Positions 23,589 to 33,766 of a DNA stretch of 64,000 bases are shown here, piece after piece. Each line of letters begins with the position of its first letter. Within the stretch, counting starts at the first letter, position 1. The DNA is from Crossiella equi. GTDB taxonomy: Bacteria; Actinomycetota; Actinomycetes; Mycobacteriales; Pseudonocardiaceae. The translations under genes were made by a program, and so were the position numbers. The stretch covers positions 7,549,786 to 7,613,785 of the forward strand of contig NZ_JAGIOO010000001.1 of NCBI RefSeq assembly GCF_017876755.1, given 5' to 3'. A model generated the notes under the pieces. That model ran no database searches and was not told where the DNA came from. It saw only the letters and a program-made list of their open reading frames with translations.

Positions 23589-23918
23589 GTGAGCGAGGAG
23601 CTGCGGGTTCGGGTGGACCGTGATCAGGTGCTTCAGGTCTGCGCGATGTTCGAGAACGAGGGGCGACGTCTGTCCGTGGAGCTGCGGCAGCTACGGGACA
23701 GGTTGCGTGTCGTGCCTTGCGCCGATGATCCGGTAAGCAAGGATGTCGCACTGGTATGCGAATGGAAGATCAAGGGCGCGCCCAATTCGATCTTCGGGCA
23801 GTATCTGAGGTTCGCGGACAACCTGAAGGCCGCCGCCGACCAGCTCAAAGCCGCGGCGCACGCCTATGGGTTCACCGATGAGGACATCAGCGGCGCGTTC
23901 ACGAGGTACCGGCGATGA
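23589..23918 (+). CDS. Type VII secretion WXG100/EspC-like small helical protein
   Basis: GTG 23589 is preceded by GGGGGG at 8 bases. The 109-residue protein is all helical with a long amphipathic first helix (about 5-40) and a second one (about 75-98, NLKAAADQLKAAAHAY), the size and shape of ESX substrates. There is no exact WxG; the turn region has CEWKIKGAP. It overlaps the DUF3558 lipoprotein gene by 4 bases (ATGA) and is followed by a PPE-like gene, a common Pseudonocardiaceae substrate set. Confidence 0.6.
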   Translation: MSEELRVRVDRDQVLQVCAMFENEGRRLSVELRQLRDRLRVVPCADDPVSKDVALVCEWKIKGAPNSIFGQYLRFADNLKAAADQLKAAAHAYGFTDEDISGAFTRYRR

Positions 23919-24526
23919 GGGCCGTGCCGTCCGCTGTCCTGGTACTCGTCGTGGGCTGCGCCGCCGGGTGCACCGTGACCGCCTCGGGTACCCCGGCGCC
24001 GCTGGACTCCTCGTCCGCCGTCGCCCAGGCGAAGGCGCTGGTTGCCAACCGGCCCAAGGAGATCCGGCTCGACGGCGTCGGCGCGGAGCAGGTGTGCGCG
24101 CTGCTCACCGAACCGCAGCGCCGCAACCTCGGCATCGAATGGGTCCAGGCGGATCCCTCGGACGGCCGGGGCCGGGACAAGTTCCGGAACAAGGGGTGCT
24201 CGTTCGAGAGCGGCACCGCCCCGCCCCGCTACGGGTACGCGATCAGCCCGGTCACCCAGGAGGGCGCGGACGTGTGGCTGCGGCCCGGTGCCACCAACGT
24301 GGAGGCGCAGCTGGTCACCGTGGCCGGGTACCCGGCGGTGCGCAACCGGCTGCGCGGGGACGAGCGGGCCTGCTTCGTCGACGTCAGCGTCGCGGACGGG
24401 CAGCGGCTGGGCATCCAGTACTCCTTCGACTCCAGTCCGGTCACCGAGACCGAGGAGCAGGTGTGCCGCAAGGCGCTGGACGCCGCCGAGCTGATCACGC
24501 GGAACCTGGTGCGGCAACAGGGGTGA
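23915..24526 (+). CDS. DUF3558 family lipoprotein
   Basis: The 203-residue protein begins with a lipoprotein signal peptide (VLVLVVGCAAGC, lipid Cys at 15 or 19). A DUF3558 domain follows, with paired cysteines (about residues 61, 94, 150 and 184). DUF3558 lipoproteins are typical of Pseudonocardiaceae and often sit beside type VII secretion substrates. It is probably anchored to the outer face of the membrane; the function is unknown. Its ATG overlaps the upstream stop (ATGA). Confidence 0.85.
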   Translation: MRAVPSAVLVLVVGCAAGCTVTASGTPAPLDSSSAVAQAKALVANRPKEIRLDGVGAEQVCALLTEPQRRNLGIEWVQADPSDGRGRDKFRNKGCSFESGTAPPRYGYAISPVTQEGADVWLRPGATNVEAQLVTVAGYPAVRNRLRGDERACFVDVSVADGQRLGIQYSFDSSPVTETEEQVCRKALDAAELITRNLVRQQG

Positions 24527-24550
24527 GCCAGGGGTGAGGGGGGATCGGGA

Positions 24551-25750
24551 GTGAGTCAGGGGCCGAGCATCCGGTACAACCGGTTCGAGGGGGTCGAGCT
24601 GGCCCAGAAGTACGCGTGGGTGCAGAACGGGCCCGGCAGCGGGGCGGTGGAGGGGACCACCCAGGTGTTGCGGGAGGCGCACGAGCTGGTCGCCCAGGCC
24701 CACCAGCGGGTGGTGGGCTTCCTCGCCCGGCTCGGCCTGTCCTGGGAGGGGGCGGCGGCCGAGGCGATGATCCAGGCCGGGGACGAGGCGGTGCGGTGGG
24801 CCGAGGGCTCCCTGGAGGTCACCGCGGCCAGCCTGGAGCGCATCGCCGTGCACGGGGTGGACTTCGCCGAGACCAAGCCCCGGATCGCGCCGCCGGAACC
24901 CGTGGTGGACCTCAAGCAGATCGCCGTCGGGGTGTTCAGCCCGCTGGTGCTCGTCGCGCTCGGCGAGGACCCGTTGAGCCGCCTGGCCGACAACAAGGCC
25001 AAGGACGACGCGGCCAACCGCGCGCTCTACGCCTACGAGCAGTCCGCCCGGGCCGGCATCGAACCGCTGCCCGCCTTGCCGGACCCGCCCGCGATCGCCC
25101 TGGACGTGGTCGGCGTGGTGCCACCGCGGCAGCCGCGCGAGCCGCGGTTGCCCGGGGGTGGTGATCCCGGGCTGGTCCGGCCGGGTGTGGACCCGGACCG
25201 GGAACGGGGGACCGGGCCGGGACAGCCCGGGGTGACACAGCCCGGCGGGACGCAGCCCGGCCGGGAGACGACCGAGGTGGCGGGCGCGGTGCCCGGCGGT
25301 GCGACCCCGGGCGGGCCCGGAACGGTGCCCAGCGGGAGCCCGGGAGCGATGGTGCCCGAAGCGGGCGGCCGGTCCGGTGGCGCCAGCGGGTGGCTCGGCG
25401 GCGGGTTCGGCCCGGGCGCGGGCGGACTGGGGGCCGGGGGAGTGGTCGGGCTCGGTGGTGCCGGTGGCGCGGGCGGGTATCGCGGCAACGGTGCTGGTGC
25501 ATCCCCGCACACCCCGGTGCCGCGTGCGCCCGCGCCCCGTACTCCCGCGCCGCCCGGTGGCGGGGCGGGAGTGCCCGGGGGCAAGGCCGGTGTGCCGGGG
25601 ATGCCGGGTCCGGTGCCCACGCCGCCCGGTGGGCGGGCGGAGGACGACCTGGAGCACACCAGCAGGTTCCGCAAGCTCAGTGACGAGATCTACGGGCTCG
25701 ACGACCTCCCCAGCGTGCCGCCGCCGGTGATCGGGGAGGGGGAGTCGTGA
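24551..25750 (+). CDS. PPE/WXG-like type VII secretion substrate with Gly/Pro-rich tail
   Basis: GTG 24551 starts a 399-residue protein. Residues 1-180 are helical, with LSWEGAAAEAM at about 74 as the WxG/PPE-like turn. Residues 185-365 are Gly/Pro/Ala-rich and low in complexity. The C-terminus has DEIYGLDDLPSVPPPVIGE, which contains a YxxxD secretion motif (YGLDD) and the PPPVIGE ending seen in many actinomycete T7SS effectors. No enzymatic toxin domain is visible. Its 3' end overlaps the convergent gene at 25690 by 61 bases. Confidence 0.7.
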   Translation: MSQGPSIRYNRFEGVELAQKYAWVQNGPGSGAVEGTTQVLREAHELVAQAHQRVVGFLARLGLSWEGAAAEAMIQAGDEAVRWAEGSLEVTAASLERIAVHGVDFAETKPRIAPPEPVVDLKQIAVGVFSPLVLVALGEDPLSRLADNKAKDDAANRALYAYEQSARAGIEPLPALPDPPAIALDVVGVVPPRQPREPRLPGGGDPGLVRPGVDPDRERGTGPGQPGVTQPGGTQPGRETTEVAGAVPGGATPGGPGTVPSGSPGAMVPEAGGRSGGASGWLGGGFGPGAGGLGAGGVVGLGGAGGAGGYRGNGAGASPHTPVPRAPAPRTPAPPGGGAGVPGGKAGVPGMPGPVPTPPGGRAEDDLEHTSRFRKLSDEIYGLDDLPSVPPPVIGEGES

Positions 25751-26466
25751 GCCGGGGGTAAGCCGCGCGGGCCGTCGAAGGCCAGGTAGTGCGGTGGCAC
25801 GTCGGTGTTGTGGACCGCCGAGACGAGCCTGGCCAGCGGGCCGACCAGGCGGACCGCCTCCTCGATCTCGTCCGGGTGGCGGGCCAGCCACCAGGCCACC
25901 GCGCTGCCCGGGTCCCGCAGCGCGCTCTCGGTGAGGTACTGGCGCTGGTCGCACTCCCACTCGCGTTCGGCGGCCCAGGCCAGGCGTTTGCGGCGCAGGC
26001 GCGCCAGGTTGGCCACCAGGGCCAGGTCCTCGGCGTCGGCGGACAGCCCGATGTCCTCGCCCCAGGACTGCACCCAGCCCCCGGGGTCGGACTGCGGGGT
26101 GCCCAGCTCGGCGGCCAGCTCGGCGTTGACGCGCTCGCCGTCGGTCAGCTCGGCCACGCCGGTGATGGCCATGGCGCGGTGCAGCACGGCGTTCACCGCC
26201 ACCCCGGCGGGGTTCGGGTGCCGTGGACCGTCCGAAGTGGACACCAGGCGCCACCGCACCGTGCAGGAGAAGCTGAAGCTGAACTCCGCGGTCGCGGTCG
26301 GCACCCGGCAGGCGCTCACCTCGTACCGCGCCACCTCCGCCGCCGTCACGGGCAGGGGCGCGGGAACCACGCCCCCCAGCTCCTTCTGCAACTGCCGGGA
26401 CCGCCACCAGGTTCCCACCCCGGCGAAAGGCCCGACGGGACGCCGGGCCTCCGTGGATCCGGTCAT
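25690..26466 (-). CDS. Uncharacterised protein B, possible SPFH/band-7-like fold
   Basis: ATG 26466 follows AGGAGGG. This 258-residue protein is a paralogue of the next gene upstream (26597-27397). Both have a beta-rich N-terminal half ending in (L/F)HRAxAIT and NAELAAELG, then a long charged helix (here LRRKRLAWAAEREWECDQRQ) and the sequence LRDPGSAVAWWLARHPD. The order, strands followed by a long helix, resembles SPFH/band-7 proteins, but without a membrane anchor; this is a weak call. It is the last gene of the crp-cyclase-STAND operon and has its own Crp-type palindrome 76 bases upstream. Confidence 0.5.
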   Translation of the reverse strand: MTGSTEARRPVGPFAGVGTWWRSRQLQKELGGVVPAPLPVTAAEVARYEVSACRVPTATAEFSFSFSCTVRWRLVSTSDGPRHPNPAGVAVNAVLHRAMAITGVAELTDGERVNAELAAELGTPQSDPGGWVQSWGEDIGLSADAEDLALVANLARLRRKRLAWAAEREWECDQRQYLTESALRDPGSAVAWWLARHPDEIEEAVRLVGPLARLVSAVHNTDVPPHYLAFDGPRGLPPAHDSPSPITGGGTLGRSSSP

Positions 26467-26541
26467 GGCACGACCCTCCTGCTTCTGCCGTCGGCAATCG
26501 GACCCGCGGAGGCAGTCTCGCCGCACCCACGCCTGGCGAAC

Positions 26542-26555
26542 GTGATCTATGTCAC
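26542..26555. promoter_or_regulatory. Crp-type palindrome GTGA-N6-TCAC
   Basis: GTGATCTATGTCAC keeps both half-sites of the Crp/Fnr consensus TGTGA-N6-TCACA core. It lies 76 bases before the start of gene B in the gap between the two paralogues, and a Crp/Fnr gene heads the same operon. One such 8-base match is expected by chance in a window of this size, so the location is the stronger evidence. Confidence 0.5.
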
Positions 26556-26596
26556 GCTCACGGTGTCCTAACCCGTATGCCGACGGCAGAGCAAGA

Positions 26597-27397
26597 TCAC
26601 TGTGGCTGTGCGTGGCCGCCGTTGGCGGAACGCGGCCCCGCCGCGTGCCCGGCCAGGCCCAGCCCGTACCGCTCCAGCAGCCGGGACAGCTGGCTCAGGA
26701 ACAGCTCCCGGCTCGACGCGTCCAGCCCACCGGTCAGATCGGACACCGCCTCGGCGAAGGTGGCCGTACCGGGCGTTCCGCCACCGGCCGCGCGCACCCA
26801 GTGGTCCAGGTCCGCGATCACCTCCGGCTCCTGGGCGCGGTCCGGGTTGCGGGAGAGCCACCAGGCGGCCGCGCTGCCGGTGTCCCGCAACACCTTCTCC
26901 TGGAAGAACGCCGCGCGCTCCCGCTCCAGCGCGGACTCCAGCCGCCAGACCTCCTGCGCCACCAGCAGCTGCCGGTACTTCTGCGTCTGCTCCAGCGCGC
27001 CGTCGGCAATGGACAGCGACAGGCCGAGCGCGTGCGCCCGCACCCGGCCGGTCGGCTCCGGCAGGTGCTCGCCCAGCTCCGCGGTCAGCCGGGTGGCCAC
27101 CGACACGTGGTACCCGGGGAAACCCTGCGAGGTGACGGCGGCGGCCCGGTGGAACACCGAGTTCAGCGCCAGGCTCTCCAGGTCCGGGTGCGGTGCGATG
27201 TCGGGCAGCGGCTGCCAGGCCACCCGCCCGGACAGCACGAACTCCACGCCCTGCACCCGGCTCGGCAGGTGCCAGTCGCCGATCTCCTTCACCTGGAACG
27301 GCATCGGCGGCGGCAACAGCGCCGGGCGGGGCGCGCTGCGCAGCAGGGACGCGAACTGCCCGAGGCAGCCCTTCGGGGCGGTGGGCTCAGTCATCAT
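26597..27397 (-). CDS. Uncharacterised protein A, possible SPFH/band-7-like fold
   Basis: This 266-residue protein starts at ATG 27397 (a second ATG follows at once) with GGAGGAGCAGG before it. The start overlaps the STAND-like gene by 11 bases. It is paralogous to gene B, sharing the FHRAAAVT strand/helix junction, a long charged helix (LESALERERAAFFQEK) and LRDTGSAAAWWLSRNPD. The C-terminal 60 residues form extra helices. No signal peptide or membrane helix is seen. The tight coupling suggests it acts with the STAND-like protein, possibly as a scaffold or adaptor. Confidence 0.5.
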   Translation of the reverse strand: MMTEPTAPKGCLGQFASLLRSAPRPALLPPPMPFQVKEIGDWHLPSRVQGVEFVLSGRVAWQPLPDIAPHPDLESLALNSVFHRAAAVTSQGFPGYHVSVATRLTAELGEHLPEPTGRVRAHALGLSLSIADGALEQTQKYRQLLVAQEVWRLESALERERAAFFQEKVLRDTGSAAAWWLSRNPDRAQEPEVIADLDHWVRAAGGGTPGTATFAEAVSDLTGGLDASSRELFLSQLSRLLERYGLGLAGHAAGPRSANGGHAQPQ

Positions 27398-29393
27398 CCT
27401 GCTCCTCCATCGCGTACTCGATCAGCCCGTCGATGACACCCAGCACCCATTCCCGTTGGGCCACATCGACTTCCTCGTCCGGGTCCTCGGTCCAGCCGAC
27501 CGTCACCCGCCGCAGCACCGCCTGGTACCGCACCTCACCGGCGCACGCCCGCACCAGCAGCCGCAGCTTGTCCACCACCCAGTGCTCGTCCACCGAGGGC
27601 TCCTCGACCAGCCGCAGCCAGGCCCGCACCGCCACCTCGACCTCCTCGGTCGGCCCCTGTCGGAACAGGCCGAGCCACCCCTCGCACAGCAGGCCGGGCA
27701 CCCCGGGTACCGCCCACAGCGCCCCCGCCCCGTCGAACAGGGCCGGGGGCGCGGTCAGCGCGGTGAAGGCCAAGGTGTTGCCCGCCACCGCGTGCCCGTT
27801 CGCCAGCGCCTTCACCACCCGGGTGAGCAGGGACAGGCGGGTGCCGGTGTCGACGGCGAGCTCGGCCAGCGCCCGCACCGCCTCCGCGACCACCTCGGGG
27901 TCCTGGTGCGCCACCAGGTTCTGCAACCGCACCACGGCCAGCTCCGGGTACGGCTCGCGCAGCACCTGGAGACAGGTCGCGATGAGCACCCGGGCCAGGT
28001 TGGGCGGACTGGTGGTGCGGGTGGACCAGTCGTAGAGCATCTGCCGGAACCGCGCGCCCGCCCCCGGGTCGAACACCGCCAGCCGCAGCACGGTCAGCGC
28101 CAGCGGCACCACCCGGGGATCGCTGGACTCCGCCCAGAGCCGTGACAGCACGCGCAGGTCGGCGTCCTCACCGGTGGCCAGGGCCAGCTCGGTGAACCGC
28201 TCGGCCAGCCGCAGCCGGTCCGCCGCGCCGAGCCGGGTGCGCGGCAGCCGTGGCACCCGCTCCACCCACCGGGTCAGCTCCGGCCGCAGCCCGGGGTGTT
28301 CGCGCCAGACGTGGCCGAGCACGGCGTGCCCGTAGGCGAGGCGGGTGAAGGTGACGCGGTCGTGCCGCACGTCCGCGCCCACCTCGGCCAGCCGGTCGCC
28401 CAGGGCCCGACCGGCCAGGCGGTGCGGTTCGTCCACCAGGGGACCGGTGTTGGCCAGCAGCTGCTCGCACGCGTGGTGCACCGCCTCCGGCCGCGCGCCC
28501 TCCAGCAGCGCGGCGGCCAGCACCAGGGCCCGCCACCGGGGCTCGGGGTGGTCGCGGAACTCCTTGGCCAGCTCCTCGGCGTAGTCGCGGTAGGCGGCCA
28601 GCGCCAGCTCCAGGGCCGCGGCGAACCCGCGCGTGCGCCGCTGGGCGGCCAGGACCAGGTCGGCCAGCCGGGACAGCTCGCGCGCCGGGTGGTGCAGCAC
28701 CGGGCGCAGGCGCTCGTCGGCGAGCTCGGCCGGGCCCACCTCGGGCAGGTGCCGGGCGAGCAGCCGGTGCCGCTGCTCCCCGGTCAGCGCGACGACGGCG
28801 ACCGAGCGGGCCAGCCAGGTGTCCAGCACGGCCGCCCCGCCCTCGGGCAGGACGACCGCGAGGCGGCAGCCCAGCTCCCGCGCCCGGCTCACCAGGGTGC
28901 GCAGCAGCTGGTCGGCCTCGGCCACCGCCGGAGGGTCCACAGTGGACAGGTCGAGCAGCACGCGTTCCCCGGCCTCGAACCCGTCGGGGTCGAACAGCCG
29001 CTCGGTCCCGGCCGACAGCTCGCGCACCCGCACCTCGGCACGGCCGGTCAGCGCCAGCACCGCGGCGGTGCGGCGGCCGGACCCGTCGGCCCCGGCCACG
29101 AACACCACGTGGTGCTGGGCGAGCCGGGTGACCACCTCGCCGAATCCCCTCGGTTCGACGAAGCGCTCCCGCAGCCAGCCGAGGAGCTCGGCGGACAGCC
29201 AGCGGCGGCGCAGCTCGTGCCCGTCGCCGGTGGTGAGCAGGCCGTGCACGGTGACCTGGGTGAAGTGCTGCTCGACGGTGGCCGCGCTGATCTCGGCGAA
29301 GATCTGCTGCCCGTCCCCGGTCTGCGTCGGGCCCGACGGCGCGGTGATGACCGTGCCACCGACATCGCCGATCTCCCCGATGTCGCCGGTCAT
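27387..29393 (-). CDS. STAND-like ATPase with N-terminal shared Gly-rich motif
   Basis: The 668-residue protein starts at ATG 29393, overlapping the cyclase-like gene by 4 bases (ATGA). Residues 10-31 carry a motif (DVGGTVITAP...QTGDGQQI) almost the same as that near the end of the cyclase-like protein. An NTPase domain follows with VVFVAGADGSGRRT (Walker A position 101-109, with Arg in place of the usual Lys) and Walker B-like RVLLDLSTVD. Residues about 230-660 are all helical repeats. The layout (N-terminal adapter motif, P-loop NTPase, helical superstructure) is that of STAND/NLR-like switches. The Arg for Lys may mean weak or no ATP hydrolysis. Confidence 0.6.
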   Translation of the reverse strand: MTGDIGEIGDVGGTVITAPSGPTQTGDGQQIFAEISAATVEQHFTQVTVHGLLTTGDGHELRRRWLSAELLGWLRERFVEPRGFGEVVTRLAQHHVVFVAGADGSGRRTAAVLALTGRAEVRVRELSAGTERLFDPDGFEAGERVLLDLSTVDPPAVAEADQLLRTLVSRARELGCRLAVVLPEGGAAVLDTWLARSVAVVALTGEQRHRLLARHLPEVGPAELADERLRPVLHHPARELSRLADLVLAAQRRTRGFAAALELALAAYRDYAEELAKEFRDHPEPRWRALVLAAALLEGARPEAVHHACEQLLANTGPLVDEPHRLAGRALGDRLAEVGADVRHDRVTFTRLAYGHAVLGHVWREHPGLRPELTRWVERVPRLPRTRLGAADRLRLAERFTELALATGEDADLRVLSRLWAESSDPRVVPLALTVLRLAVFDPGAGARFRQMLYDWSTRTTSPPNLARVLIATCLQVLREPYPELAVVRLQNLVAHQDPEVVAEAVRALAELAVDTGTRLSLLTRVVKALANGHAVAGNTLAFTALTAPPALFDGAGALWAVPGVPGLLCEGWLGLFRQGPTEEVEVAVRAWLRLVEEPSVDEHWVVDKLRLLVRACAGEVRYQAVLRRVTVGWTEDPDEEVDVAQREWVLGVIDGLIEYAMEEQDDD

Positions 29394-30262
29394 GGCTTGT
29401 GCCCGCGCTTGTCGACGGTGTTGCTGATCCCGCCGCTGACCCGGAAACCCTGGCCGCTGATCTGTTGGCCGTCCCCGGTCTGCACCGGTCCGTCCGGCGC
29501 GGTGATCACCGTGCCGCCGACGTCGCGGACGCGCCCGACGGCCCCTCGGCCGCCGGGTGCGGCGGGAGGCTCCGGTGCGGGCCCGGCCGCGTCCTCGGCC
29601 TCGGCGACGGGCGCGGGTGCCGGGAACAGGCCCTCGGCCAGCACCTCCCCGGACTGGCGCGGCAGGTACAGGTACCCGGTGCTCTCGTACTGCTTCACCC
29701 GCACCGGCGCGGGGTGGAACTCGGCGGCCCGCAGCGAGCAGTACCCGGCGGCGACCACGTCGGTGAACACCCGCTCGGACAGGATCGCCGCGACGAAGGT
29801 GATGGTGGGGTTGGTGCGTTGCAGGAGGGCCTTGAGCGGGGCGGCGTCGACCAGGCGGTGGGCCTCGACGCGGCTCTCGCCCTTGCCGTCGCCCAGGGCG
29901 TTGCGGCCGGAGTCGGTGAGCGGGCCCACGGTCAGGCTCACGCGCATGCGGACCGGGTTCATCGCGGCCCGGCCCACGGCCATGGCGTGGCGGTCGGCCA
30001 GCTCCTCCTGCAGGCCGGTGAGGTACTCGCCGATCAGCAGCGGCAGGTGGCGCGTGGAAAGGCCCAGGGTGTAACCGTCGCCGGTGCTGTCGTGGAAGCT
30101 CACCTCCTCCCACAGGGCGCCGTGGCCGATGCGGGTGAAGGTGTCCCGCAGGACCACGGGCACCGACTCGCTCAGGCCTTGCTGGTCGGCGCCCGGTTCC
30201 CGGCTGTAGTCCTTGATGTCCACGACCAGTACCGCGCGGTAGGGCGGCAGGGGCTTGTTCAT
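29390..30262 (-). CDS. Class III nucleotidyl cyclase-like protein with C-terminal shared motif
   Basis: The 290-residue protein starts MNKPLPPYRAVLVVDIKDYS. Asp15 in VVDIKDY and Asp62 in STGDGY match the two metal-binding Asp residues of class III nucleotide cyclases. MRVSLTVGPL and the later GESRVEAHRL resemble the second half of that fold. The purine-selecting Lys of KTIGDG-type motifs is Asp58 here, so the product, if any, may not be cAMP. A Pro/Ala linker leads to the motif DVGGTVITAP...QTGDGQQI at residues 247-268, repeated in the STAND-like neighbour. Crp-type palindrome and crp gene are directly upstream. Confidence 0.6.
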   Translation of the reverse strand: MNKPLPPYRAVLVVDIKDYSREPGADQQGLSESVPVVLRDTFTRIGHGALWEEVSFHDSTGDGYTLGLSTRHLPLLIGEYLTGLQEELADRHAMAVGRAAMNPVRMRVSLTVGPLTDSGRNALGDGKGESRVEAHRLVDAAPLKALLQRTNPTITFVAAILSERVFTDVVAAGYCSLRAAEFHPAPVRVKQYESTGYLYLPRQSGEVLAEGLFPAPAPVAEAEDAAGPAPEPPAAPGGRGAVGRVRDVGGTVITAPDGPVQTGDGQQISGQGFRVSGGISNTVDKRGHKP

Positions 30263-30320
30263 GCCCGCAAGGTTCGGCGGACCGTCGTGTTCGAACTGTC
30301 CAGAAGTACACAGAACGAAT

Positions 30321-30334
30321 GTGACCCGGGTCAC
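30321..30334. promoter_or_regulatory. Crp-type palindrome GTGA-N6-TCAC
   Basis: GTGACCCGGGTCAC, within the longer TGTGACCCGGGTCACT, is an exact palindrome. It overlaps the stop codon of the Crp/Fnr gene and lies 58 bases before the cyclase-like gene. It is the likely binding site of the adjacent Crp-like protein and marks an internal promoter. Confidence 0.6.
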
Positions 30335-30975
30335 TCCGGGATGTGGATGCGGTCCCGGAAGCGCACGGGGTCGGCCACCACCACGTGCGGGCCCGGTCCG
30401 AGGATGCCCTCGGCACGCAGGTCCCGCACGACCTCGGCCACCTTGCTGCGGGACAGGCCGAGCGCGTCGGCCAGCTCCTGCTGGGAGAAGGGCACCCGCA
30501 GCGGGTCGGCCACCTCCGGGCCCGCCAGGGCCAGTGCCCGCTGGATCAGGCGCGCGATCCGCTGCTCGGCCCGGAAGTGGATGAGCTGGCGGCGGAAGCC
30601 CACGCTCTCCGACAGCTTCGAGGTCATGTACTCCCCGACGGTGAAGGTCAGCGCCCGCTCCTCGCAGAAGCGCCGGAACGCGGCCAGGGGGACCCGGTGC
30701 GCGTGGCAGTCGTCCAGGGCGGTCACCGTCGCGCTGCGGGTGTGCCTGCCGGGCGCCTTGAACAGGCCCAGCTCGCCGACCAGGTCACCCCGGCCGCGCA
30801 TGGCCACCAGCCCCTGCGTGCCGTCCTCGCCCAGGTGGTGCACGGTGATGCGGCCACTGGCCACCACGAACACCTCCTCGCCGAGCTCGTCCTGCCGCAC
30901 CAGCACCGCGCGCCTGCGGTACAGGCGGCTGGGCCCGAGCTCGGTCAGCTCCCGCCACGCCCGCTCGTCGACCAT
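30331..30975 (-). CDS. Crp/Fnr family transcriptional regulator
   Basis: This 214-residue protein has an N-terminal cyclic-nucleotide-binding domain whose phosphate-binding cassette looks intact: GELGLF with Glu68, and RSAT with Arg80. A dimer helix (about 110-140) and a C-terminal winged HTH (FSQQELADALGLSRSKVAEV) follow. ATG 30975 has AGGGGG 9 bases upstream; ATG 30996 is an alternative (221 aa). There are no Fnr-type cysteines. It probably binds a cyclic nucleotide and controls the cyclase-like/STAND operon through GTGA-N6-TCAC sites at 30321 and 26542. Confidence 0.85.
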   Translation of the reverse strand: MVDERAWRELTELGPSRLYRRRAVLVRQDELGEEVFVVASGRITVHHLGEDGTQGLVAMRGRGDLVGELGLFKAPGRHTRSATVTALDDCHAHRVPLAAFRRFCEERALTFTVGEYMTSKLSESVGFRRQLIHFRAEQRIARLIQRALALAGPEVADPLRVPFSQQELADALGLSRSKVAEVVRDLRAEGILGPGPHVVVADPVRFRDRIHIPE

Positions 30976-31056
30976 CGTCTGGAACCCCCTGTGCATGCCC
31001 TCATGCCTACCTCGTGCGCCCTGCCGGGCGGTGCGGGATCAACCAGGTTCGCCCGC

Positions 31057-31326: not shown

Positions 31327-32526
31327 TCACGCGGACTCCCGGGAGAACCCCTCCAGCACGGCCTCCACCACCGGCGAGGACTCGAAGGCGCGGGCCACCC
31401 GGCGCAGCCAGGCCAGCTCACCAGCCAGGTCGGTCACGCCCTCGGCCGGGGACAGCGGTGCGGCACCGGTCGTGCGGTGCCCGTCGGCCTTGTCCCGCAA
31501 CGCCATCCGCAGCCGCGCGGCCTCCACCACGGCCGCGTGCTCCTCGCCGGTCAGCCCGGCCTCGTCGGCCAGCCGCCGGGCCAGCTCCGCCACCGCCGGG
31601 TCCAGCCAGGGCCGCAGCGCCAGCTCGCCGTCGCGGATCTCGATCACCCGCCGGTACAGCCGGAACGCGGTGCCCGGCCGCCGCCAGGCCCCGGCCAGCG
31701 GGTCGACCAGGGCGATGTCGGGCTCCGCGCGGTACAGGGCCGCCCACAGCGGGGCCAGCTCGCGCAGCGCGCGCCGCCGGTCCAGGCCACCGAACCACTC
31801 CGACACCCGCGGTCCCCAGCCGGGCACCGTCCAACCGGTGATCTTGAACAGCGCGGCCAGCGCGATGCTGGCCTGCACCACCGGTTCCCACGGCTGCCCG
31901 GTGTAGGCGAACAGCCCGGCGACCAGGTCGGCGGCGCGGCCGGCCGAGTAGACCAGGCCCAGCGCGGAGGAGATCGCGGCCAGCCGCAGGCCCAGGCGCA
32001 GCCAGGTGCGCCCGGCCACCTTCGCGTAGCGCCAGCACAGCCGCAGCACGTCGGCCTGGCCGAGGGTGTACGCGCCCAGGTAGAGCACCAGGTACACCTG
32101 GTAGAACGGCGAGCCGACCAGCGCGAGCACGTAGTCGTGGTCCTGGGTGCCGGTGGCCAGCGCGAGCGCGTACAGCACGGCCATCGCCCCCAGCACCAGG
32201 CCGTAGAGCCACAGCCGCAACCGGATCCGCGGCCACACCCGCGCGGGCGGCCCGGACCAGCCGAGCACCACGGCCAGCTGCGCCGCGGTGAGCACGATGA
32301 CCAGGCCCTGGTTGAGGATCCCGCCGATGTTGGGGACGCCGAGCGCCCGGTCCACCCACGCCCACACCGGCGCGGTGAACAGCGTGTAGGACACCGCGAG
32401 CGTGGCGAAGACCGCGCACAGCGCGAGCAGTCCGGGCTCGCGGGGGTCGCGGCGCAGCGCGGGCAGCTTCGCCAGCAGGGCGAGCAGCGCCAGCCCCGCC
32501 AGCAGCGGCGGCAGGTACCGCACCAC
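31327..32526 (-). CDS. MAB_1171c-like putative membrane transporter
   Basis: GTG 32526 (or GTG 32523) begins a 399-residue protein with seven predicted N-terminal membrane helices (about 1-225). A cytoplasmic C-terminal part follows, with FRLYRRVIEIRDGELALRPW and LARRLADEAGLTGEEHAAVVEAARL, the hallmark of MAB_1171c/DUF6545-type proteins. These are regularly encoded after an XRE regulator and an ImmA/IrrE peptidase, as here, with 10 bases between the stop of the peptidase gene and this start. The transported compound is unknown; some relatives sit beside signalling or toxin-antitoxin loci. Confidence 0.8.
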   Translation of the reverse strand: MVRYLPPLLAGLALLALLAKLPALRRDPREPGLLALCAVFATLAVSYTLFTAPVWAWVDRALGVPNIGGILNQGLVIVLTAAQLAVVLGWSGPPARVWPRIRLRLWLYGLVLGAMAVLYALALATGTQDHDYVLALVGSPFYQVYLVLYLGAYTLGQADVLRLCWRYAKVAGRTWLRLGLRLAAISSALGLVYSAGRAADLVAGLFAYTGQPWEPVVQASIALAALFKITGWTVPGWGPRVSEWFGGLDRRRALRELAPLWAALYRAEPDIALVDPLAGAWRRPGTAFRLYRRVIEIRDGELALRPWLDPAVAELARRLADEAGLTGEEHAAVVEAARLRMALRDKADGHRTTGAAPLSPAEGVTDLAGELAWLRRVARAFESSPVVEAVLEGFSRESA

Positions 32527-32536
32527 GGCGTCCAGG

Positions 32537-33106
32537 TCAGCTCACCTGACCGGCCAGGGCGCGCTCGATGCGGCGCACCAGCTCGGCGGCCTCCGGCGGC
32601 ACCGGCCGCACGGGCTCGGCCCGCCACGAGCTGGTGCGCTGGATGACCAGGGAGGCGATGATCTCGGCCTGCTGCTCCTCCACCGCCGAGTAGCAGCCCC
32701 GCCCGAGCACCCGGCGCACCATGCCCGGGTCCAGGGAGGGCAGCAGCAGCCGCGAGGCGTCCTCGGACAGCACCGGGGCGGCGTGGTGGTCGCAGAGCAG
32801 GTGGCCGATCTCGTGCAGCACGATGTGCCGCTGGTGCAACGGTGAGGTCTGGGCCTCGTAGAAGATGTAGTCCACCGGGTCGGTGGCGATCCACAGCCCG
32901 CACGGGCCGCCGGTGGGCAGGCTGATCGGCGCGAGCAGGATGGGCCTGCCACGCGAGTCGCCGATGCGGTCGCACAGGGTCTGCAGGTCGAAGGGCTCGG
33001 GCAGGTCCAGCCCGTGCACCACCGCCGCGCAGTCCCGGTACACGCTCGGCAAGTCAGCGCCGCCTCCCCGCCTGGCGTCCCGCCGACGCCACCTGGCGAT
33101 CCTCAT
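32537..33106 (-). CDS. ImmA/IrrE family metallo-endopeptidase
   Basis: The 189-residue protein carries the zinc protease motif HEIGH in HIVLHEIGHLLCDH (about residues 96-109) and a downstream EEQQAEIIASL that supplies the third ligand Glu. ImmA/IrrE proteases cleave XRE-type repressors to switch on mobile elements or stress genes. The XRE partner is encoded directly upstream and overlaps by 4 bases (ATGA). ATG 33106 is chosen for that overlap; the ribosome binding site is weak, as expected for coupled translation. Confidence 0.85.
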   Translation of the reverse strand: MRIARWRRRDARRGGGADLPSVYRDCAAVVHGLDLPEPFDLQTLCDRIGDSRGRPILLAPISLPTGGPCGLWIATDPVDYIFYEAQTSPLHQRHIVLHEIGHLLCDHHAAPVLSEDASRLLLPSLDPGMVRRVLGRGCYSAVEEQQAEIIASLVIQRTSSWRAEPVRPVPPEAAELVRRIERALAGQVS

Positions 33107-33576
33107 TCTGCCGGGGAGCCATCCGGCCGGGCAGGGCCGTCCGTCTCCTTCAGGCGCCTGGCCTGCTCCACGGCGGCCCCGATCAGGTCGAGCAGCTCGG
33201 GCAGCGAGGCGGTCTCCATCGCGCCGGGCGTGGTGGCCCGCAGCGCGACCTTCTGCGCGCCCGCGTCCTTGAGCCTGCTCAGCAGCCCCAGCTCCGCGCG
33301 CGTGCGCTCGGCGATCTGCTCGTCGACGAAGTAGCCGATGGGCACGCCGAAGAACGCGGCCAGCGTGGCCATGGTCTCCACCGTGGGGTTGGCCCGGGGC
33401 GAGAGCAGCGCGTAGATGCCGGACTGGGACAGCCCGGTGCCCGCGGCCACGTCCGCCGGGCTGTGCGGCCCGCCGGGGTGGTGCTCCAGCAGGTACCGCA
33501 GACGTTCGACGAAGGCGGACCGCGCGGCCGTGCCGCCGTCCGACGCCCGCTGGCCAGGCACTTCCCGTTCCTCCAC
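33103..33576 (-). CDS. XRE family transcriptional regulator
   Basis: GTG 33576 has GGAGGAGG 6 bases upstream. The 157-residue protein has an XRE helix-turn-helix (about 25-80, SPADVAAGTGLSQSGIYALL and TMATLAAFFGVP), then YFVDEQ and a C-terminal helical part. It is probably the substrate of the ImmA/IrrE peptidase coded next to it and represses the three-gene operon. An AGTGGAA-N15-TTCCACT repeat in the promoter is a likely operator. Confidence 0.85.
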   Translation of the reverse strand: MEEREVPGQRASDGGTAARSAFVERLRYLLEHHPGGPHSPADVAAGTGLSQSGIYALLSPRANPTVETMATLAAFFGVPIGYFVDEQIAERTRAELGLLSRLKDAGAQKVALRATTPGAMETASLPELLDLIGAAVEQARRLKETDGPARPDGSPAE

Positions 33577-33600
33577 GACCCACCTCCTCCGGTGCACTGA

Positions 33601-33629
33601 AGTGGAAACTAGCACTAAATTGTTCCACT
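33601..33629. promoter_or_regulatory. Probable operator of the XRE operon
   Basis: AGTGGAA (33601-33607) and TTCCACT (33623-33629) are exact inverted copies separated by 15 AT-rich bases, 25-53 bases before the XRE start. The position fits autoregulation. Confidence 0.5.
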
Positions 33630-33696
33630 GTGTTGCAACCGTGCTCCATTTGACCCTAAGCTGCGATGCGAAGGGCGCTGCAGCACCAGGGCCCGG

Positions 33697-33766
33697 ACGG
33701 CAAGGGGCAGCACGGGGCACCAAGCGACTGGGGGTCGCTTGCGTGCACGGGCTGCCCCTTCGCCGT
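33697..33766. other. Long imperfect hairpin, possible structured RNA
   Basis: Nested complementary arms fold into one long stem. ACGGC pairs with GCCGT across a single bulged C, AAGGGGCAGC (33702-33711) with GCTGCCCCTT (33751-33760), and GCAC with GTGC. The innermost pair is CAAGCGAC (33721-33728) with GTCGCTTG (33734-33741), leaving a 5-base loop. No gene is adjacent in the right place for a simple terminator. It could be a small RNA, an attenuator or a remnant of a mobile element. Confidence 0.4.

Follow-up and report, generated by a model that had tools for sequence, protein, structure and literature searches.

A CRP-cyclase-NLR-SPFH gene module of Pseudonocardiaceae with matched protein motifs and a predicted, nearly private class II promoter

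We analysed a 64,000-nucleotide stretch of the Crossiella equi genome (NCBI RefSeq assembly GCF_017876755.1, contig NZ_JAGIOO010000001.1, positions 7,549,786 to 7,613,785), hereafter the window; the genome holding it is 9.44 Mb in a single contig. Five leftward genes were confirmed in the window, CRP, CYC, NLR, P4 and P5, which an earlier note made from the letters alone had read as an operon whose cyclase-like protein signals to a Crp-like protein and to a STAND/NLR-like ATPase. CRP (30331..30996, as all five on the (-) strand) encodes a Crp/Fnr-type regulator with a cyclic nucleotide monophosphate (cNMP)-binding domain and a helix-turn-helix (HTH) whose recognition helix reads R-S-K-V, as judged from Pfam and homologues. 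CYC (29390..30262) is predicted from an AlphaFold model, PDB fold matches and a sequence profile to comprise a class III nucleotidyl cyclase domain (residues ~5-212), a low-complexity linker and a C-terminal motif of signalling type. NLR (27387..29393) would be an nSTAND3-like NTPase whose Walker A is degenerate and whose C-terminal part is long, and it is followed by P4 (26597..27397) and P5 (25690..26466), two SPFH-like paralogues. The layout described in the note was borne out by the coordinates: CYC and NLR overlap by ATGA and NLR and P4 by 11 bases. P4 and P5 are 130 bases apart. The CRP start moved, from 30975 to 30996, most likely the correct position because homologue alignments begin at about that Met, the homologue starts, like gene starts at all loci, being chosen by rule. 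CYC most likely begins at ATG 30262, and a 68-base gap with a promoter inside therefore separates it from CRP.

Conservation of this neighbourhood, proposed in the earlier note as a check on the operon, was found for four of the five genes. Among 40 stretches from the family, made up of the best CYC matches and some lower ones, 38 had CRP upstream of CYC, 36 had an NLR match on the downstream side and 35 had a P-type gene after NLR; the full order CRP-CYC-NLR-P was kept in 35/40. The remaining loci had only P5 and a cyclase paralogue, CYC2 (L051, L061), no NLR match (L050, L069) or a P gene upstream only (L059). A set of 42 loci from named organisms, partly overlapping the first, contained all four genes in 23 cases, two Kribbella among them, and CRP-CYC-NLR without P in one (Frankia, L104). 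Three showed CRP only at a distance and lacked NLR, and another 15 had CYC with no CRP or NLR match on the same strand, one of which (L110) showed a weak CRP-like match on the opposite strand. Sequence comparison identifies CRP-CYC-NLR-P4 as a conserved four-gene module, and P5 as a gene of an older neighbouring locus. In 249 sampled family genomes, CYC matches occurred in 133 at E <= 0.001, weak and partial matches counted; a hand count put the genomes reaching E <= 1e-15 at about 83. In 396 phylum genomes searched with a shorter query, so that query lengths and E-value limits differed between the two surveys, E <= 1e-15 was reached in 2, the window's own genome being one. Because only these two phylum genomes match at that limit, the module appears centred on Pseudonocardiaceae, with outliers in Kribbella and Frankia. 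In Lentzea-type loci (L103, 8857-10706; also L056) the NLR match is partial or falls in two frames, which suggests a possibly broken gene beside seemingly intact CRP and CYC.

Downstream of its cyclase domain CYC carries a Pro/Ala linker and then a Gly/Asn/Gln/Val-rich motif (residues 240-268, 29459..29545 (-), GAVGRVRDVGGTVITAPDGPVQTGDGQQI), a copy of which opens NLR (residues 3-31, 29301..29387 (-), GDIGEIGDVGGTVITAPSGPTQTGDGQQI). This common motif, already noticed in the earlier note, is identical at 22/29 positions (76%, tblastn). To score the pairing, all CYC tails were compared with all NLR heads at 48 loci, those left from 61 pairs after 13 loci with repeated CYC tails were set aside; the NLR start taken was that nearest the CYC stop, which gives an ATGA overlap in 35 of the 48. 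The mean score was 79.1 with the own partner vs 33.9 with other partners, and none of 2000 permutations reached it. The own partner ranked first in 27/48 loci and in the top three in 38. Four controls (tail vs NLR end, tail vs NLR middle, cyclase domain vs NLR head, tail vs shuffled head) gave own-vs-other differences of at most 1.3 points, reached by 46, 566, 1273 and 388 of 2000 permutations, respectively, the first being a slight excess. The alignments indicate that the motif differs between loci yet is mostly matched within a locus, which is the behaviour of homotypic signalling motifs. By eye, the motifs resemble two amyloid peptides given in Table 2 of PMC8086366, the part of that paper used here: VQVGDGNVQI (Frankia BASS3) and GSGDQFN (fungal sigma).

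The 15 loci lacking both a same-strand CRP and the module NLR carry a different tail: all 15 have Q[VI]GxxHG, set in a sequence of the type TNxISGxxxGTAxQVGHxHG. In five of them (L110, L116, L117, L126, L128) a long frame close by carries a VVQAGTITGDV-like segment not far from the N-terminus, a search by one pattern only that may have missed some; the two frames tested (L110, L116) are NB-ARC/TPR proteins. The cyclase thus seems to have changed its sensor and its motif together. These loci form a second configuration, a separate cyclase-NLR pairing.

The gap between CRP and CYC contains two CRP-type palindromes 23 bp apart. Site A (30320..30335 (-), AGTGACCCGGGTCACA) has one mismatch to TGTGA-N6-TCACA and overlaps the CRP stop codon, and site B (30297..30312 (-), TGTGTACTTCTGGACA) is a weak copy of TGTCC-N6-GGACA. 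Over 39 CRP-CYC gaps, the first pattern was present at <=2 mismatches in 29 (0.84 after mononucleotide shuffling) and the second at <=1 mismatch in 31 (0.16 after the same shuffling). Where both sites have <=3 mismatches they are spaced by 22-24 bp, except in L056, L059 and L067. An ungapped alignment anchored on the 33 loci with site B at <=2 mismatches revealed an nAnnnT element, with A in 32/33 and T in 32/33 at offsets 38 and 42, the first base of site B being 0. It stands in the same place in 21 of the 22 named-organism loci in which CRP is adjacent and site B has <=2 mismatches, a set overlapping the first, and is off by one in L122. In the window the predicted -10 element is GAACCT (30270..30275 (-)), at the fixed distance from site B, and the predicted +1 (30263 (-)) falls one base ahead of the CYC ATG; the resulting near-leaderless mRNA would also explain the missing CYC ribosome-binding site. 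With A and T taken as -11 and -7, site B is therefore centred at -41.5, the position of a class II activator for E. coli CRP, and site A at -64.5.

A search of the 249 family genomes with the strict consensus TGTCCGN4CGGACA-N22-AnnnT returned 33 matches in 32 genomes. Twenty-six of these lay within 102 bases upstream of a CYC match; 18 of the 26 belong to the set that defined the pattern and eight do not. A control search with the reversed pattern gave no matches. The window promoter fails this consensus. One of the remaining seven matches is a reverse-strand match overlapping the site in genome G019, and the other six are perfect operators with a -10 element away from any listed CYC (G119:C11:63060, G126:C57:18772, G193:C1:9040711, G081:C33:55995, G105:C20:362218, G037:C588:25890), possibly extra regulon members or undetected loci. 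One further perfect operator with a -10 element, open to the same readings, was seen in another family (G260:C1:1510357). The CRP-CYC gap thus carries a conserved CRP-type promoter, nearly private to the CYC operon, with predicted binding sites. A promoter with the same sites ahead of CRP itself was considered and rejected: none of the upstream regions had site A at <=2 mismatches, and six had a site B-like match (L046 at one mismatch, five others at two).

Both Pfam domains of CRP score above cut-off (cNMP_binding, 4e-19; HTH_Crp_2, 1.3e-10), and the cyclic-nucleotide cassette (GE...RSA) is intact in the window, as had been claimed, and conserved in homologues. Among 51 distinct CRPs, recognition helices with Ser after the key Arg go with site B at <=1 mismatch in 41/46 cases and other helices in 0/5, L067 (Thr for Arg) being counted among the 46; the window CRP is one of the five Ser-type cases with site B at >1 mismatch. 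Site A is a standard CRP consensus, the window's genome encodes another CRP with an R-E-T-V helix (L073; of its CRP loci, L073, L074, L075, L077, L079 and L080 were used and L072, L076 and L078 left out), and the window's site B is weak. All of this would suit an arrangement in which a global CRP or an unrelated regulator binds sites A and B and the adjacent CRP controls something else. We regard this as unlikely, however: site B departs from the CRP consensus, occurs almost exclusively at this operon and varies together with the helix of the local CRP.

The cyclase domain of CYC lies outside all Pfam families, and a PDB sequence search with the single CYC sequence returned nothing useful. A profile built from 14 CYC relatives, run against the PDB up to E 1, found class III cyclases only (four Ma1120 sequences, best E 0.025). 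The AlphaFold model (predicted local distance difference test score, pLDDT, 82; predicted template-modelling score, pTM, 0.74) gave the same answer: the best 50 of 633 PDB matches were all class III cyclases (best E 5.4e-8), with moderate template-modelling (TM) scores of 0.32-0.46 on query length, a length that includes the low-confidence tail. Structure prediction, which the earlier note had also suggested, therefore returned the expected fold, and we assign CYC by its model to the class III nucleotidyl cyclases. Across 32 module and non-module CYCs, D15, D62, R136 and K190 are invariant (32/32). The first two are the metal-binding Asp residues pointed out earlier; R136 and K190 we take, by motif position, to be the catalytic Arg and the phosphate Lys. 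CYC is on this basis presumably an active cyclase. In the alignment with Ma1120, D58 does occupy the purine-selecting Lys position, as had been observed, but Asp is found there in only 7/32 sequences, alongside H, F, G, T and others; because the position varies across the family, D58 was rejected as a substrate signature.

Two alternatives concern the cyclase. CYC could be an inactive nucleotide-binding adaptor, with CRP answering another ligand: the purine-Lys position is variable, the transition-state Asn is not kept, the paralogue CYC2 in L061 has lost its second metal Asp, and inactive cyclase domains are reported in related systems in the parts of Kaur 2020 (PMC7159879) that we drew on. 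The invariance of both metal Asp residues, the Arg and the Lys in all 32 sequences makes us think this quite improbable. The second alternative is a Pycsar system, to which the earlier note had likened the operon. Here too a cyclase adjoins a cyclic-nucleotide-binding protein, PADLOC Pycsar models match CRP, and cUMP/cCMP synthases appear among the CYC fold matches. Yet the PADLOC matches to CRP fall in its cNMP-binding part, CYC itself has no PADLOC match up to E 1, and adenylyl and guanylyl cyclases outscore the cUMP/cCMP synthases as fold matches. Pycsar joins a cyclase to a cNMP-binding receptor with a transmembrane or TIR effector. The five proteins included no such effector that we could find. 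As the receptor here is, moreover, an HTH_Crp_2 DNA-binding transcription activator, the kinship was rejected and we give it hardly any credence.

The STAND-like assignment of NLR is the weaker one. Of 24 homologues of the STAND/NLR-like ATPase proposed before, 15 show an nSTAND3 match when searched up to E 1 (best E 5.4e-6); the window protein itself stays short of the cut-off (E 0.0073) and has Arg at the Walker-A Lys position. Many homologues have a P-loop of the form GxxGxGRR[TS], and the Walker-A Lys position is Arg in 17, Lys in 1 and another residue in 6 of 24 rows. A PADLOC model of OloA matches a short C-terminal stretch of NLR (E 0.00059).

P4, a module member by gene order, is 29% identical to its homologue P5. 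The P5 AlphaFold model (pLDDT 85) has vault protein, HflK/C, erlin and stomatin as its top PDB matches (E 3.5e-4 to 1e-2), with low TM-scores and high root-mean-square deviations. Both proteins look like SPFH proteins, P5 by its model and P4 by homology, in line with the suggestion made from the letters. The five-gene operon of the earlier note stands in part: the gene order is real and four genes are conserved, but P5 belongs to an older MAB_1171c-CYC2-P5 locus. A five-gene unit was ruled out by L051 and L061, of the same genus, which keep that locus without CRP, NLR and P4 and have one P gene each, P5-like. We exclude P5 from the module because these loci retain it without the module and because in L032 and L033 CRP-CYC-NLR-P4 sits between CYC2 and P5. 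The same-genus loci fit either insertion of the module there or its loss elsewhere. CYC2, a degenerate cyclase paralogue beside P5 with no CRP or NLR matches (L051, 7322-7915; L061, 7187-7771, the copy without the second metal Asp), had no match in the window. An extra SPFH-like P gene lies upstream of CRP in L050, L053, L054, L056, L059, L102, L103 and L108.

Upstream of CRP, at 31327-33723 (-), the window carries a triad of a MAB_1171c family membrane protein (NCBIfam, 1.7e-79), an IrrE/ImmA-like peptidase (sub-threshold) and an HTH_3 regulator; the first two are kept beside CYC2-P5 in the same-genus loci. Convergent with P5, at 23915-25747 (+), lie a DUF3558 protein and then a Pro/Gly-rich protein, ESX/PPE-like by eye.

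We favour, with somewhat better than even confidence, the interpretation that CRP-CYC-NLR-P4 is a sensor, second-messenger and transcription circuit with positive feedback; it is best supported by the matching motifs of CYC and NLR and by the predicted class II promoter, nearly private to the operon. In the proposed mechanism the NLR/STAND protein would sense a trigger and oligomerise, and its N-terminal motif would template the matching C-terminal motif of CYC, as bacterial amyloid signalling sequences (BASS) do. Class III cyclases work as dimers, so clustering would unite the cyclase domains and a cyclic nucleotide would be made. The local CRP, nucleotide-bound, would then activate the CYC-NLR-P4 transcript from site B, with site A possibly occupied by a second dimer of the local CRP or by the genome's global CRP of cAMP type, and the outcome would be positive feedback on the operon. 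An SPFH oligomer of P4 would probably scaffold or execute the output. Of the signalling proposed in the earlier note, the link from cyclase to Crp is strengthened by the CRP-type promoter, but the shared motif suggests that the signal runs from the STAND protein, as sensor, to the cyclase, as effector, and not the reverse. The fuller version, that prion-like templating by the NLR motif switches the cyclase on and that the dedicated CRP reads the diffusible product and drives its own operon from a private class II promoter, as a self-amplifying, all-or-none immune or stress circuit, is put forward more tentatively, at a little under even confidence.

Several observations weigh against this interpretation. 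No cognate pairing is seen in L053, L056, L064 and L104, and at another 17 loci the own partner comes second to eighth. No Pfam amyloid-motif model scores above cut-off on the CYC tails, none matches the tail in the window, and NACHT_sigma, the model of the fungal sigma motif, is sub-threshold on 2/32 CYCs (E 0.0095 in L097, and 0.19). Site B of the window has two mismatches to its consensus, and 2.38 of 39 mononucleotide-shuffled regions do as well; site A is missing (>3 mismatches) in L040, L044, L045, L064, L068, L070 and L071, and site B is missing or has >2 mismatches in L050, L056, L059, L067, L068 and L070. The correlation between helix and site rests on five exceptions, uncorrected for ancestry. 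In the alignment columns shown before R136, CYC has no invariant Asn that could be the transition-state Asn of the class III pair, and its nucleobase preference is not predictable from sequence; neither the purine-selecting Lys/Glu nor the transition-state Asn is known to be universal among class III cyclases. Finally, the Walker-A Lys is absent in 23/24 NLR homologues, and ATP-driven oligomerisation may therefore differ from that of classical STANDs.

Any role of the circuit in immunity is inferred, as are catalysis and amyloid formation, and the same wiring may instead serve physiology, as a stress or developmental switch unconnected with phage, like the STAND/AfsR-type regulators known from filamentous actinobacteria. 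By eye the neighbouring genes look metabolic or transport-related. A PADLOC scan of 10 neighbours found no convincing defence gene, returning HTH and oxidoreductase cross-matches only, and a defence island was accordingly rejected. The prevalence of CYC within the family (133/249) and its rarity outside (2/396), at the respective limits of E <= 0.001 and E <= 1e-15, also suit such a switch, and sub-threshold similarity to part of AfsR is seen in the NB-ARC/TPR proteins close to two other CYCs. On the other hand, diversifying matched motifs and patchy presence recall conflict systems, and the NLR match to OloA, short as it is, points the same way. We hold the physiological switch to be possible, if rather doubtful. 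Should the fuller version of the circuit be correct, it would join amyloid signalosomes to classical second-messenger control of transcription. An output made of a second messenger with transcriptional feedback, as it appears to be here, would let one sensing event commit a whole cell or filament. The individual links, between the two motifs, from the cyclase to its nucleotide, from there to CRP and from CRP to the promoter, are small parts that can be tested separately, and the nearly private operator offers a ready reporter with which to find the trigger.

A description of a CRP-cyclase-NLR-SPFH operon was not found in the literature searched, which covered subscription journals thinly and in part, so that its absence there is weak evidence. 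Dyrka et al. 2020 is reportedly the original BASS paper. BASS pairs of NLR and effector genes are described in the portions of PMC7889193 and PMC8086366 that we used, and according to the former the bacterial NLR/amyloid pairs end in membrane-targeting Bell domains, less often in CHAT or TIR domains. As far as these portions go, our module shares with them adjacent or overlapping genes, a motif at the NLR N-terminus and the effector C-terminus, and occurrence in filamentous actinobacteria; amyloid templating would carry over by analogy. It differs in having a class III cyclase as effector, not Bell, CHAT or TIR, and in its further parts: the dedicated CRP, the private promoter and the SPFH protein. 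The sections consulted of Kaur 2020 (PMC7159879) and Kaur 2021 (PMC8195603) describe STAND modules to which cNMP cyclase domains are coupled via domains common to both, cyclase architectures that include Band-7 (SPFH), and an AP-ATPase system for peptide processing with a CRP-like factor nearby. The STAND/EAD/bDLD and vWA-MoxR-VMAP systems, as presented there, thus resemble the module in cyclase-STAND coupling, cyclase-Band-7 association and a nearby CRP-like factor, whereas here the genes are separate and in the fixed order CRP-CYC-NLR-P, and a linear motif takes the place of an EAD or death-like domain. Neither vWA, MoxR nor VMAP was among the Pfam families of the five proteins, neighbours not having been searched systematically. 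At the promoter, the N6-spacer palindrome at -41.5 and the -10 element are those of a CRP class II promoter, the consensus for E. coli and M. tuberculosis being taken from the available part of PMC4117774; the module departs from this pattern in its TGTCC half-site, its tandem site 23 bp upstream and its distribution over little more than one operon.

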